DNA from: Alphaproteobacteria bacterium
GTDB lineage: Bacteria > Pseudomonadota > Alphaproteobacteria > Sphingomonadales > Kordiimonadaceae
DNA: 64,000 nt
Direction: 5' to 3'
Assembly: GCA_006226495.1 (NCBI GenBank)
Contig: SBGU01000049.1
Span: forward strand, 1 to 64,000
The notes beneath the pieces were generated by a model. The model worked only from the letters and a program-made list of their open reading frames with translations, was not told the DNA's origin and made no database searches. This document shows positions 52,227 to 55,682 of the stretch, piece by piece (position 1 is the stretch's first letter; every line of letters begins with the position of its first letter). Both the position numbers and the translations under genes were made by a program.

Positions 52227-52738
52227 TGCCGATGCCGCTTGGCAAAATCTTAGCACCCGCCCTTGCAACTGCCGATGTTTGCGACGCGCTCGGCAAGAAG
52301 GTGGCTGTTTTGCCGGTGGATTTCCTGGACTTCGGCGGGGTGAGCGACTTTGCGGGCCCCGCCGTTACCCTGCAAACCCTTGATGACAATACCAAGGTCA
52401 AGGCGCTTCTGGAGACCAGGGGCGAAGGTCGTGTGCTTGTGGTCGACGGCAACGCCAGCCAGCGGGTTGCGCTCGTGGGCGGCAACCTGGCGGCACTGGC
52501 GGCCAAAAACGGCTGGGCCGGGTTGGTGGTATATGGCCGTGTGCGCGACCGGCACGAACTGGTGCGCGAAGATATCGGCATCAAGGCGCTGGGGTCCTGC
52601 CCGCGCAAAAGTGAAAAGCTCGACCGTGGCGACGTGAATGTCGAAATCGCCATCGGCGGTGTGACCATCCATCCGGGTGACTGGGTTATCGCCGACGCCG
52701 ATGGTGTCGTGGTGTCCCGCGAATTGCCGTCGCTTTAG
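52226..52738 (+). CDS. rraA: RraA-like / 4-hydroxy-4-methyl-2-oxoglutarate aldolase family protein
   Basis: This 170-residue protein fits the RraA fold: LATADVCDALGKK at the start, DFAGPAVTLQTLDDNTKVKALLE, VLVVDGNASQRVALVGGNLAALAAKNGWAGLVVYGRVRD (the conserved Gly-Gly-Asn-Leu and Gly-x-Val-Arg-Asp) and VHPGD-like VTIHPGDWVIADADGVVV. Members either inhibit RNase E or are aldolases; the residues seen (Arg and Asp in VRDR) are common to both. It is co-translated with the preceding 70-residue gene and closed by a terminator. Confidence 0.8.
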   Translation: MPMPLGKILAPALATADVCDALGKKVAVLPVDFLDFGGVSDFAGPAVTLQTLDDNTKVKALLETRGEGRVLVVDGNASQRVALVGGNLAALAAKNGWAGLVVYGRVRDRHELVREDIGIKALGSCPRKSEKLDRGDVNVEIAIGGVTIHPGDWVIADADGVVVSRELPSL

Positions 52739-52766
52739 GACCAATTACCGAAATATAGCCAGTATG

Positions 52767-52796
52767 CGGCGCCCGCGTGTGGCGCCGGTTTTGTTT
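52767..52796 (+). terminator. Rho-independent terminator after rraA
   Basis: CGGCGCC (52767-52773) and GGCGCCG (52781-52787) pair perfectly around a 7-base loop and are followed by GTTTTGTTT, a good T-rich tail, 28 bases after the rraA stop. Confidence 0.75.
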
Positions 52797-53584
52797 CAGG
52801 TGCTCTGGATCGCGTGGGTCATGGCCCGGATCAGTTGCACCGTGGTCATGCAGCCGTCGGTTTCGCCGCGGAAGCGTTCCATGTTGCGACTGAGGCTGGA
52901 CACATCCCGCTTCAGAAGGCGCGCCACGTCCGACAGGCTGTGGCCACAGGCCTGTTGCACCGCTGCGGTGAAAATGCAGCGCTGCCGCACGGCGCGCCGC
53001 GCACGTGTGGCGCCTGTCAGTTCCTGCGGTGAAATGCCGAGGATTTCGCGCGCGATCGTCAGAAGTTCGCCTGGGGTTTTTTCCACTGTCTGCGGCACGG
53101 TGCGCTCGCTGTCCGTTGCGGCGACCAAGGCGCGAAACTGCTTTGAACCCACGACCTGGCCGTTGTAGCCTGCGGGCGGCCAGACCGGCGTCGACAGAAC
53201 ATCACCGTGTCCTTCAAGCGCCTTCAGGTGCGCCTGCACGGTCTCAAGATGGCAGGCCGGGTCGAACAGCAGCGCCAGATAGCGCCCCTGGAACAGCGAA
53301 CCTTCAAACCCGTGGCGCCGGTGCGCATAGCGGGTGAACCTGAGGGCCAGTTTCTGCATCATGGACGACAGCGGCAGGTCGCCGATTTCGATGATCAGTT
53401 CAAAGCGGTCCCGGCCAAGCGCGTGGCCATGCAGGTGATATCCGCATTCGCGCAGGCCCACCGCCAGCAATTCAAGAAATGCATCCTTGTCGGTTTCATC
53501 GGTAAAGAGATCGACCCCGGGCGCGGCGCGAAGCACCACATGGTAATAGCCGCCGGGATAATGCAGGCGCGGTTTGCGTGCCAT
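52796..53584 (-). CDS. Degenerate REP-associated tyrosine transposase (RAYT)-like protein with C-terminal helix-turn-helix
   Basis: This 262-residue protein begins ARKPRLHYPGGYYHVVLRA and follows the RAYT/Y1_Tnp layout through RFTRYAHRRHGFEGSLFQGRYLALL. The HUH metal-binding motif (usually NHxH) is replaced by D59-R60-F61-E62, and the helix where the nucleophile Tyr should be reads ETVQAHLKALEG without Tyr. So it cannot nick DNA in the usual way. The C-terminal third has a DnaA/HTH-like helix set (QACGHSLSDVARLLKRDVSSLSRNMERF). The frame is intact. It may have become a DNA-binding regulator. Confidence 0.7.
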   Translation of the reverse strand: MARKPRLHYPGGYYHVVLRAAPGVDLFTDETDKDAFLELLAVGLRECGYHLHGHALGRDRFELIIEIGDLPLSSMMQKLALRFTRYAHRRHGFEGSLFQGRYLALLFDPACHLETVQAHLKALEGHGDVLSTPVWPPAGYNGQVVGSKQFRALVAATDSERTVPQTVEKTPGELLTIAREILGISPQELTGATRARRAVRQRCIFTAAVQQACGHSLSDVARLLKRDVSSLSRNMERFRGETDGCMTTVQLIRAMTHAIQST

Positions 53585-53676
53585 CAGCGCCTGCCTTGCC
53601 GGAATACCGGATAGGCAGCCCGATGAGCTGCCTCATGATGGAAGTCGCCCCACACTTTCCCATCCTCGCAATTGGC

Positions 53677-53690
53677 GGGGCCAGGGCCCC
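53677..53690. repeat. Short GC hairpin upstream of the RAYT-like gene
   Basis: GGGGCC and GGCCCC flank AG, 93-106 bases before the RAYT-like start. It is a perfect but short inverted repeat, of uncertain meaning. Confidence 0.3.
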
Positions 53691-53698
53691 GGATCTTG

Positions 53699-53714
53699 TT
53701 AACACTTGTGTTAA
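53699..53714. promoter_or_regulatory. Perfect palindrome TTAACAC-TT-GTGTTAA
   Basis: Two 7-base arms around TT form a perfect inverted repeat 115 bases upstream of the RAYT-like start codon. It resembles TetR-family operators and contains TTAA at both ends but eight bases apart, so it is not a CtrA box. The region is followed by TATAGGAGG on the plus strand, with no gene behind it. Confidence 0.5.
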
Positions 53715-53776
53715 TATAGGAGGACTCGCACAGGCCTGTCCCGGCAACCTGTCGCGCGTAGCGGGCAATGTGTCTC

Positions 53777-53790
53777 AAAGTGATCACTTT
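53777..53790. promoter_or_regulatory. Perfect 14-base palindrome AAAGTGATCACTTT
   Basis: A perfect palindrome lies 25 bases from the end of the araC-type gene and about 190 bases upstream of the RAYT-like start codon. It looks like a dimeric regulator site. Confidence 0.4.
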
Positions 53791-53814
53791 TATGGCGGCA
53801 GCATGCGCCCGGTG

Positions 53815-54948
53815 TCAGGTCAGGAGATCAGCAACCCATTTTTTATAAAGCGTGTCACCCATTGCCACATGGCTGACGTCAGACCGTTCCCGGCTGGCGG
53901 CAGCATGATAATGGACATAGGCTTGGGCCCCCAGGTCGCGCGCTTCCGCGGGCGCCATGCCGAACGCTTCGCGGAACGCCCGGCGGAACGTGCTTTCCGA
54001 TTGGAACCCCAGGTCAAAGGCTAACTGGATCAGCGGAATATTGCGGCCGTCAGGCGACGTCAGCAGCCGGAACGCATGCCGGACCCGGCGGTTGGTCACA
54101 AAACGCTGGATGCCCCCCAGCGGCGCGGCAAGCCGGTACAGGGTGGCGCGCGACATGCCCAGCGCATGCGCGATCATGTCGGGGCTCAGGGCCGGGTTTT
54201 GCAGGTGCCGGTCCACAAAGGTGCGAATTTCCTGCAAGCGCCCGCGGTCAATGGCGGGCTGGGCCTGGGCAAGCGCCTCCGGGGTTGCGTCAAGGGCGGC
54301 CCGCAAAAGGCTGACGGTCGGTGCCACAAGGCCCGCTGCCTCGTTGGGGGTCATATATTCAGCCATGAGATGCAGGTCCTGCATGTGCCGGGCAAGAATG
54401 CGCGTGGCCACCGCATCGCCGGCCAGCCGGCGGGTATGATGGTTGTCCATGTTGATGTCCGCGGCTTCCAGCACTGTGCGGGGGATCAGGAGGTTGAAGG
54501 CATCAAAATCGCTTGCAGTGGCATGTATGTGCCGCGTCATGTCGACGAGGTGCAGGTCCCCGGTTCCGATATTCTTGCTGTCGCCGCCGGCTTCGGACAG
54601 GATTCCGCCTGAGCGGTAATATTGCAGAACGAGCCCGTCGATACTGTCGCGGGCGAAGTTGGCATTGCCGCGCGTGAAATGCTGGCCTGACGCCGTAACC
54701 CGGATCGACATGAAACCCGGGAACAGGAAATTATCGATTGTGCCGCGAGTTTCGTTCCGGGGGTTCAGTTTTTGCCGGGCATTTGTGTCCGCAATCTGCG
54801 ACGCATTGAAAAAGACCGACATGGCATCGATCCAGGCGTCCGAGACAAAACCGGCATCAACATCGTCAGTATTGCGCAGGATTTCTGTGGAAAAAGTCGA
54901 GCGCGGCAGCGCTATTTCCTGCGGTCGGGCATTCTGGTCATCCGGCAT
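53815..54948 (-). CDS. AraC-family transcriptional regulator
   Basis: This 377-residue regulator has an N-terminal sensing region with an AraC-binding-like domain (HFTRGNANFARDSIDGLVLQYYRSGG) and a C-terminal AraC DNA-binding domain: LQEIRTFVDRHLQNPALSPDMIAHALGMSRATLYRLAAPLGG and IPLIQLAFDLGFQSESTFRRAFREAFGMAPAEARDL. Ligand unknown. ATG 54948 follows GGGGGC; an earlier ATG at 55026 has no ribosome site. It is on the same strand as the RAYT-like gene and 230 bases upstream of it. Confidence 0.85.
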   Translation of the reverse strand: MPDDQNARPQEIALPRSTFSTEILRNTDDVDAGFVSDAWIDAMSVFFNASQIADTNARQKLNPRNETRGTIDNFLFPGFMSIRVTASGQHFTRGNANFARDSIDGLVLQYYRSGGILSEAGGDSKNIGTGDLHLVDMTRHIHATASDFDAFNLLIPRTVLEAADINMDNHHTRRLAGDAVATRILARHMQDLHLMAEYMTPNEAAGLVAPTVSLLRAALDATPEALAQAQPAIDRGRLQEIRTFVDRHLQNPALSPDMIAHALGMSRATLYRLAAPLGGIQRFVTNRRVRHAFRLLTSPDGRNIPLIQLAFDLGFQSESTFRRAFREAFGMAPAEARDLGAQAYVHYHAAASRERSDVSHVAMGDTLYKKWVADLLT

Positions 54949-55076
54949 AAAGCCCCCTGCCGGACGCGGATTCAATCCATTGCATTCTGACTCTCCCCCA
55001 AAGAAAATCGTTCTTCCACATAACATGTGGCTGGGGGCAAGCCAATATCGTGCCAGATAGCGTTTGTGTGATCAGC

Positions 55077-55682
55077 TCAGCGTTCCAGAAGGAACAGCGC
55101 CTGGTCGGCGGACCAGTTGGCGCGCATACGGCCAATGTTCAGGCGCTGGCCGCGCGCGGTGTGCGGGACAAATTCCCGAACCCGGATGCCTTCGGCTTCC
55201 AGAAGGTCGAACAGGTCGAGAATGGTACAGAAATGGATGTTGTCCGTATTGTACCAGGTTTTCTCCAGCGCCTTCGTGACCGGCATGCGGCCGCGGGTTA
55301 CCAGGCTCATGCGTACTTTCCACTGGCCGAAGTTGGGGATGGTCACCACGGCCTTCTTGCCGATCCGGAGCAGGGACACCAGCACATCGCGTGGCCGGTG
55401 CACGGCCTGCAGGGTCTTGGACAGGATCACATAATCGAAACACTGGTCCGGATATTCGGCCAGGTCATTGTCGGCGTCGCCCTGGATCACGAACAGGCCC
55501 TTGCCGACACATTCATTCACGCCGGACTGGCTGATCTCGATCCCGCGGCCATCGACATCGCGGTGGCGCACAAGCCAGTCCAACAGTTCGCCGTCGCCGC
55601 AGCCGACGTCCAGCACGCGGCTGCCGGGTTCAATGAGGTCGGCGATCAGCTTCAGGTCGGGGCGCAATTGCTCGGTGGTCAT
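55077..55682 (-). CDS. metW: Methionine biosynthesis protein MetW
   Basis: This 201-residue protein has the SAM-binding motif [20 protein letters not shown] and the MetW-specific [21 protein letters not shown]. It works with MetX in homoserine acetylation. Its ATG overlaps the metX stop codon (ATGA), so the two are made together. Confidence 0.9.

Follow-up and report, generated by a model that had tools for sequence, protein, structure and literature searches.

Where RAYTs are described as domesticated transposases, they are taken to be active enzymes that process single-stranded DNA. A literature search on catalytically inactive RAYTs, which covered little of the subscription literature, returned nothing relevant. 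A DnaA-type C-terminal domain marks subclass 2.1.2 of the TnpAY1 transposases (PMC6006769), and this subclass is probably the same as the TIRYTs (PMC6006769; PMC3733652). The HUH and Tyr motifs are reported to be conserved in every TIRYT aligned in one study (PMC3733652), and the main survey put sequences lacking the motifs to one side, regarding them as non-functional (PMC6006769).

The gene described here lies in a window of 64,000 nucleotides, the whole stretch of DNA that was analyzed (contig SBGU01000049.1, Kordiimonadaceae). It encodes a protein of 262 amino acids (aa) with the following features.

52796-53584, minus strand: coding sequence of the 262-aa protein, TIRYT/RAYT-like and catalytically dead (present once in the genome; frame free of stops; codon-position composition native)
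53201-53584, minus strand: Y1-transposase-type N-domain, residues 1-128 (AlphaFold model compared with 4er8)
53399-53410, minus strand: lost HUH motif, D59-R60-F61-E62 in place of the N-H-x-H of relatives (alignments)
53228-53230, minus strand: lost nucleophile, with H119 on the catalytic Tyr column and Leu at position 123 in place of the Asn of the Y---N motif (alignments; no Tyr in residues 103-139)
53147-53203, minus strand: linker, residues 128-146, shorter than in relatives by about 50 residues that include their WSS region (alignments; lower pLDDT)
52799-53080, minus strand: DnaA domain IV-like C-domain, residues 169-262 (structure matches; Bac_DnaA_C below threshold)

Genomic context of the gene

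The reading frame is free of stops, as the preliminary description had reported, and opens with the same MARKPR start as the rest of the family. The YYHVV and FQGRY segments occupy residues 13-17 and 98-102, where that description had placed them. The GC content at the three codon positions (0.69/0.46/0.75) is like that of the neighboring genes (0.72/0.44/0.73 for rraA). The source genome contains a single match for the gene and no second RAYT-like gene. Database searches with the protein gave no match to Pfam Y1_Tnp and nothing significant in PHROGs and NCBIfam; Rfam yielded no matches.

The gene and an AraC-family gene sit between rraA and metW. They have the same orientation, and 230 bp separate the araC-type gene from the 262-aa gene, which lies downstream of it. 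Of 17 congeners that were inspected, 13 have metW after rraA and lack an AraC-family gene in the interval; in the other four (G004, G006, G007, and G015) the slot holds an AraC-family gene and one or two flagellin genes, the G006 contig terminating within the AraC gene. The content of this slot varies within the genus, and the 262-aa gene has no syntenic orthologue there. The rraA-metW interval (52738-55077 in the window; L128, L129, L130, and L139) is empty in most species of the genus, and the link between AraC and flagellin genes in this slot may merit attention.

Domain structure and origin of the DnaA-type end

An AlphaFold2 model was built from a 61-sequence alignment of homologues and has a mean pLDDT of 90.2. 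For residues 1-136 of the model, the closest structure is TnpAREP in complex with a REP hairpin (4er8; Z 12.7, rmsd 2.7, 129 aligned), so the Y1/HUH ferredoxin-like fold of RAYT/TnpAREP is predicted for this protein. Residues 169-262 superpose on DnaA domain IV (3pvp, Z 13.2; 1j1v, Z 12.8). The sole Pfam signal for the protein is Bac_DnaA_C (E 5e-5, below the curated cut-off), and the family profile picks up DnaA chains by sequence with E about 2e-11. Four residues of the DNA-binding domain, R202, R226, D227, and S232, are kept. Two of these, R202 and D227, represent the Arg and Asp of the family whose columns align with DNA-contacting residues of DnaA. The predicted combination of a Y1 fold with DnaA domain IV is well supported, yet the model depends on the family homologues.

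The protein had been described as a domesticated transposase that became a DNA-binding protein by losing both catalytic motifs and gaining a helix-turn-helix end. The motif losses and the retained DNA-binding end stand, and according to the model this end is fuller than claimed, being a complete DnaA domain IV. The gain does not stand: the DnaA-type C-domain is ancestral to the branch and present in catalytically intact relatives from Mariprofundus, Geobacter, other Desulfuromonadales, Nitrospirae, and elsewhere. Acquisition of the helix-turn-helix by fusion was rejected, since intact relatives carry the same end.

Loss of the catalytic motifs

More than 150 homologues, drawn from named genomes, from the order to which a Desulfuromusa genome belongs, and from genomes sharing the order, class, or phylum of the source genome, were aligned in sets of 89, 89, 61, and 42 sequences. 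In the larger and the local-pair alignments alike, the N-H-x-H column is occupied by D59-R60-F61-E62 and the Tyr column by H119, which bears out the losses first noticed by eye. A small 10-row alignment put a gap before H112; the conclusion of Tyr loss is independent of this gap because residues 103-139 contain no Tyr at all. The other reading frames of the gene hide no HUH or Tyr motif, and a frameshifted catalytic motif was thus ruled out.

Among the columns that are fixed in intact relatives, the protein keeps 20 of 44 in the N-domain and none of the five catalytic ones. As both metal-binding His residues, the nucleophile Tyr, and the third metal ligand are all gone, the protein is incapable of the HUH/Tyr cut-and-join reaction. 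Relative to its relatives, it also lacks about 50 residues between the two domains, including the conserved WSS region, a deletion that the preliminary description did not mention.

A conserved dead group in Desulfuromonadales

Three proteins from Desulfuromonadales (L149, L160, and L183) are among the best matches to the 262-aa protein, and they are full-length and lack both motifs. They belong to an orthologous dead group (L149, L160, L183, and L237-L253) that is found in 20 of 136 Desulfuromonadales genomes, with one strong match in each (E below 1e-140). One member, L247, carries a stop; the others are 313-314 aa long and 66-81% identical to L149. The catalytic Tyr is lost in all members, being replaced by E, D, H, Q, or A (Glu or Asp in most), and the HUH motif is intact in none, the first His being kept in two and the second in two. 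The column of the first HUH His is the most variable in the protein (3.37 bits) and is invariant in intact relatives. The DnaA domain is kept despite these losses, the same combination as in the 262-aa protein.

The dN/dS ratios within the group are 0.04-0.20 (median 0.09; 27 pairs with usable synonymous divergence), and the group is under purifying selection. Thus, orthologues with the same losses and a dN/dS below one, proposed earlier as a check on the 262-aa protein itself, exist in this related group. Ten loci have rng and a radical-SAM gene upstream, which is consistent with vertical descent of the group. A single functional neighbor for the whole group was rejected, as the contexts of the remaining loci differ.

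In intact relatives the repeat GGGTCAGGCTTG precedes the ATG, in many cases by 43 nt, and an inverted copy lies just after the stop. Among 64 intact relatives, the left copy is present in 49, the right copy in 25, and both in 22, compared with 4 and 0 in the wrong-orientation controls. The repeat is common to intact RAYT-DnaA_C elements of many phyla (L146, L158, L182, L187, and others) and differs from the published TIRYT consensus GGGGWSAS. In the dead group, the left-end repeat GGGGCAGGCTTG (equivalent to GGGGCAGGCTTGYAAT) is found in 17 of 19 leaders and the right end in one of 19. The 12-nt core GGGGCAGGCTTGYAAT is 94-100% identical at each position, with flanks mostly at 30-70%, and the GGGG form of the repeat is almost confined in those genomes to the group's own leader. 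The outlying members L251-L253 lack the leader motif and have a GC-rich hairpin-like repeat about 120 nt upstream (GTAGGGGCAGGGTTGCCCTGCCC in L251).

In our reading, the group is a transposase that can no longer cut or move and whose own end has been retained as a site of control, to which it would bind. Because it is under purifying selection and the left-end repeat is kept, dead TIRYTs can be retained, and autoregulation by DNA binding is the simplest role for them. The 262-aa protein is plausibly a more diverged case of the same kind.

Relationships and further losses in the family

The phylogenetic position of the 262-aa protein is compatible with more than one arrangement. Its grouping with the Desulfuromonadales dead group has an SH-aLRT value of 93 in one tree and is absent from another (AU p 0.48); placement with the partly dead pair L002 and L148, which lost HUH and kept Tyr, has an AU p of 0.44. 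Losses of the motifs recur across the wider family. The RAYT-HTH proteins L047, L048, and L050, from three genomes of one genus, have an intact HUH motif and His in place of the catalytic Tyr, with a dN/dS of 0.06 for the sole pair with a finite estimate; L003, L049, and L065 are further single cases. A common origin of the main dead members is not supported, nor is it rejected (AU p 0.13 with the 262-aa protein and 0.095 without it).

The region upstream of the gene

Four features were found between the gene and its upstream neighbor.

53676-53691: GC-rich palindrome CGGGGCCAGGGCCCCG in the leader (sequence)
53699-53714: perfect palindrome TTAACACTTGTGTTAA, candidate operator, overlapping the predicted -10 box
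53713-53742, minus strand: predicted promoter GGGACA, 18 nt, TATATT, the sole promoter-like site in 52700-53830 (0.2 expected by shuffling)
53777-53790: perfect palindrome AAAGTGATCACTTT, upstream of the predicted promoter (sequence)

The palindromes at 53699-53714 and 53777-53790 had been pointed out before and are indeed present. The former (16 bp) is unique in the genome, with one arm mismatch allowed, and its interpretation as a REP was rejected because it occurs in a single copy. Since it is unique and overlaps the predicted -10 box, a candidate operator fits this site better than a REP.

No TIR pair surrounds the 262-aa gene, and the family end repeat GGGKCAGGCTTG has no match above background near it. 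The best match to GGGGCAGGCTTGYAAT is GGGACAGGCCTG, which agrees in 10 of 12 positions and lies 158 nt upstream; 7% of random windows (both strands) reach 10 of 12. The predicted -35 box GGGACA lies inside GGGACAGGCCTG (53731-53742) in the expected orientation, a match within background.

Selection or decay

No orthologue of the 262-aa protein was found in 19 congeners, and a scan of genome contigs returned no close one. A search of plasmids gave six weak matches only (21-34% identity), and each scan of viral contigs turned up a single distant relative. Given the lack of an orthologue in the congeners and the extreme branch length (about 3 changes per site, compared with medians of 0.2-0.5), selection on the protein is not directly measurable as dN/dS; the value against L002, 0.455, is too near saturation for use. 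In a neutral simulation started from the gene's own sequence, the frame stayed open in 5.5% of copies at 0.2 substitutions per site and in 1% at 0.5. Set against this simulation, the open frame and the native composition are moderate evidence for selection, not proof.

Discussion

We lean towards the view that the gene is a dead TIRYT derivative surviving as a DNA-binding protein which, most simply, represses its own promoter. In this scenario, a TIRYT-type transposase with an HUH/Y1 domain and DnaA domain IV would have lost catalysis and left a dead derivative. The protein would bind the palindrome at 53699-53714 over the -10 box and so repress its own promoter, and it may act at further DNA sites too. 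Dimers are the usual state of Y1 proteins, and the 262-aa protein probably acts as one. Autorepression is proposed because the unique palindrome overlaps the predicted -10 box, the place of a repressor operator. Several lines of evidence point to this scenario: the motif losses, the two-domain model, the kept DNA-binding residues, and a frame that is open despite the long branch. The genome has no other RAYT-like gene to supply an active partner subunit. By analogy, the purifying selection and conserved left-end repeat of the dead relatives, demonstrated for that related group only, would also favor it. The weak points are that selection on the protein itself has no orthologue for its measurement, that the family end repeat is unrecognizable at its promoter, and that the adjoining AraC-family gene could own the palindrome.

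The loss of about 50 residues and of over half of the fixed N-domain columns also counts against retention, being what decay would give. A decaying remnant would have lost catalysis, have no function, and keep its frame open merely because too little time has elapsed. The absence of an orthologue from the congeners and the variability of the rraA-metW slot suit such a remnant, as do the very long branch and the stop-bearing copies that are common among Desulfuromonadales relatives. We nevertheless consider it unlikely: the frame and codon-position composition depart from the neutral simulation, the two-domain model is confident, the DNA-binding residues are kept, and the long branch itself implies much elapsed time.

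A function in DNA binding may also be directed at a target other than the gene's own promoter. The protein could modulate its AraC-type neighbor, bind hairpins or sites linked to replication by means of its Y1 fold and DnaA domain IV, or silence relatives of the parent element. Two potential DNA-binding domains and a similarly oriented araC-type gene 230 bp upstream would allow this, but the genome has no intact RAYT relative to silence, and a single-copy palindrome makes no regulon visible by motif, so we rate such a target as rather improbable. It is highly improbable that the protein is a nuclease with new chemistry, in which D59, E62, or H119 would form a different metal site. Acidic and His residues do occupy the former active-site columns, and Glu or Asp stands at the Tyr column in most of the dead group; yet the HUH columns vary freely in that group, where a new active site would be expected to be conserved. 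The 262-aa protein probably works as a TIRYT-derived DNA-binding protein.

A more general proposal, which we put forward tentatively, is that dead TIRYTs are a class of domesticated DNA-binding regulators that has arisen repeatedly in bacteria. In several lineages, including that of the 262-aa protein, HUH/Tyr catalysis and the mobile ends would have been lost, and the remaining end or a new palindrome would have become an operator read by the transposase fold and DnaA domain IV. That a group without the motifs is under purifying selection and retains the left end but not the right suggests a second path, by which a transposase becomes a DNA-binding regulator. The conserved Desulfuromonadales dead group is new here, and the broader value lies there. 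It opens the question of whether a non-cutting transposase still reads its own end and controls transcription from it.

Comparison with known systems

With the RAYT of E. coli, TnpAREP (4er8), the 262-aa protein shares the fold of its N-domain (129 residues, Z 12.7). In contrast to the E. coli protein, the 262-aa protein has neither HUH nor Tyr, no REP family was found for it in the genome-wide count of the palindrome at 53699-53714, and it carries an additional DnaA-type domain. The whole of this C-domain superposes on DnaA domain IV (3pvp and 1j1v, Z about 13), and the Arg and Asp that we take to be equivalent to its DNA-contacting residues are kept. Unlike DnaA, the protein gives no match to an AAA+ domain, and the His of the DHTT signature is Val; the likeness is one of fold and does not imply DnaA-box specificity.

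TIRYTs (TnpAY1 subclass 2.1.2; PMC6006769, PMC3733652) share with the 262-aa protein a Y1-type N-domain followed by a Bac_DnaA_C-type C-domain, and they have no association with REPs. The 262-aa protein differs from them in the absence of HUH, Tyr, flanking TIRs, and about 50 residues. Because its catalytic residues and TIRs were looked for and are absent, it is classed neither as a RAYT nor as a TIRYT. The Desulfuromonadales dead group is about 30% identical to the 262-aa protein, which is shorter (313 aa in the group), an orphan, and without a recognizable left-end repeat GGGGCAGGCTTGYAAT in its leader. What the two have in common is the architecture, the loss of both motifs, and the single copy per genome.
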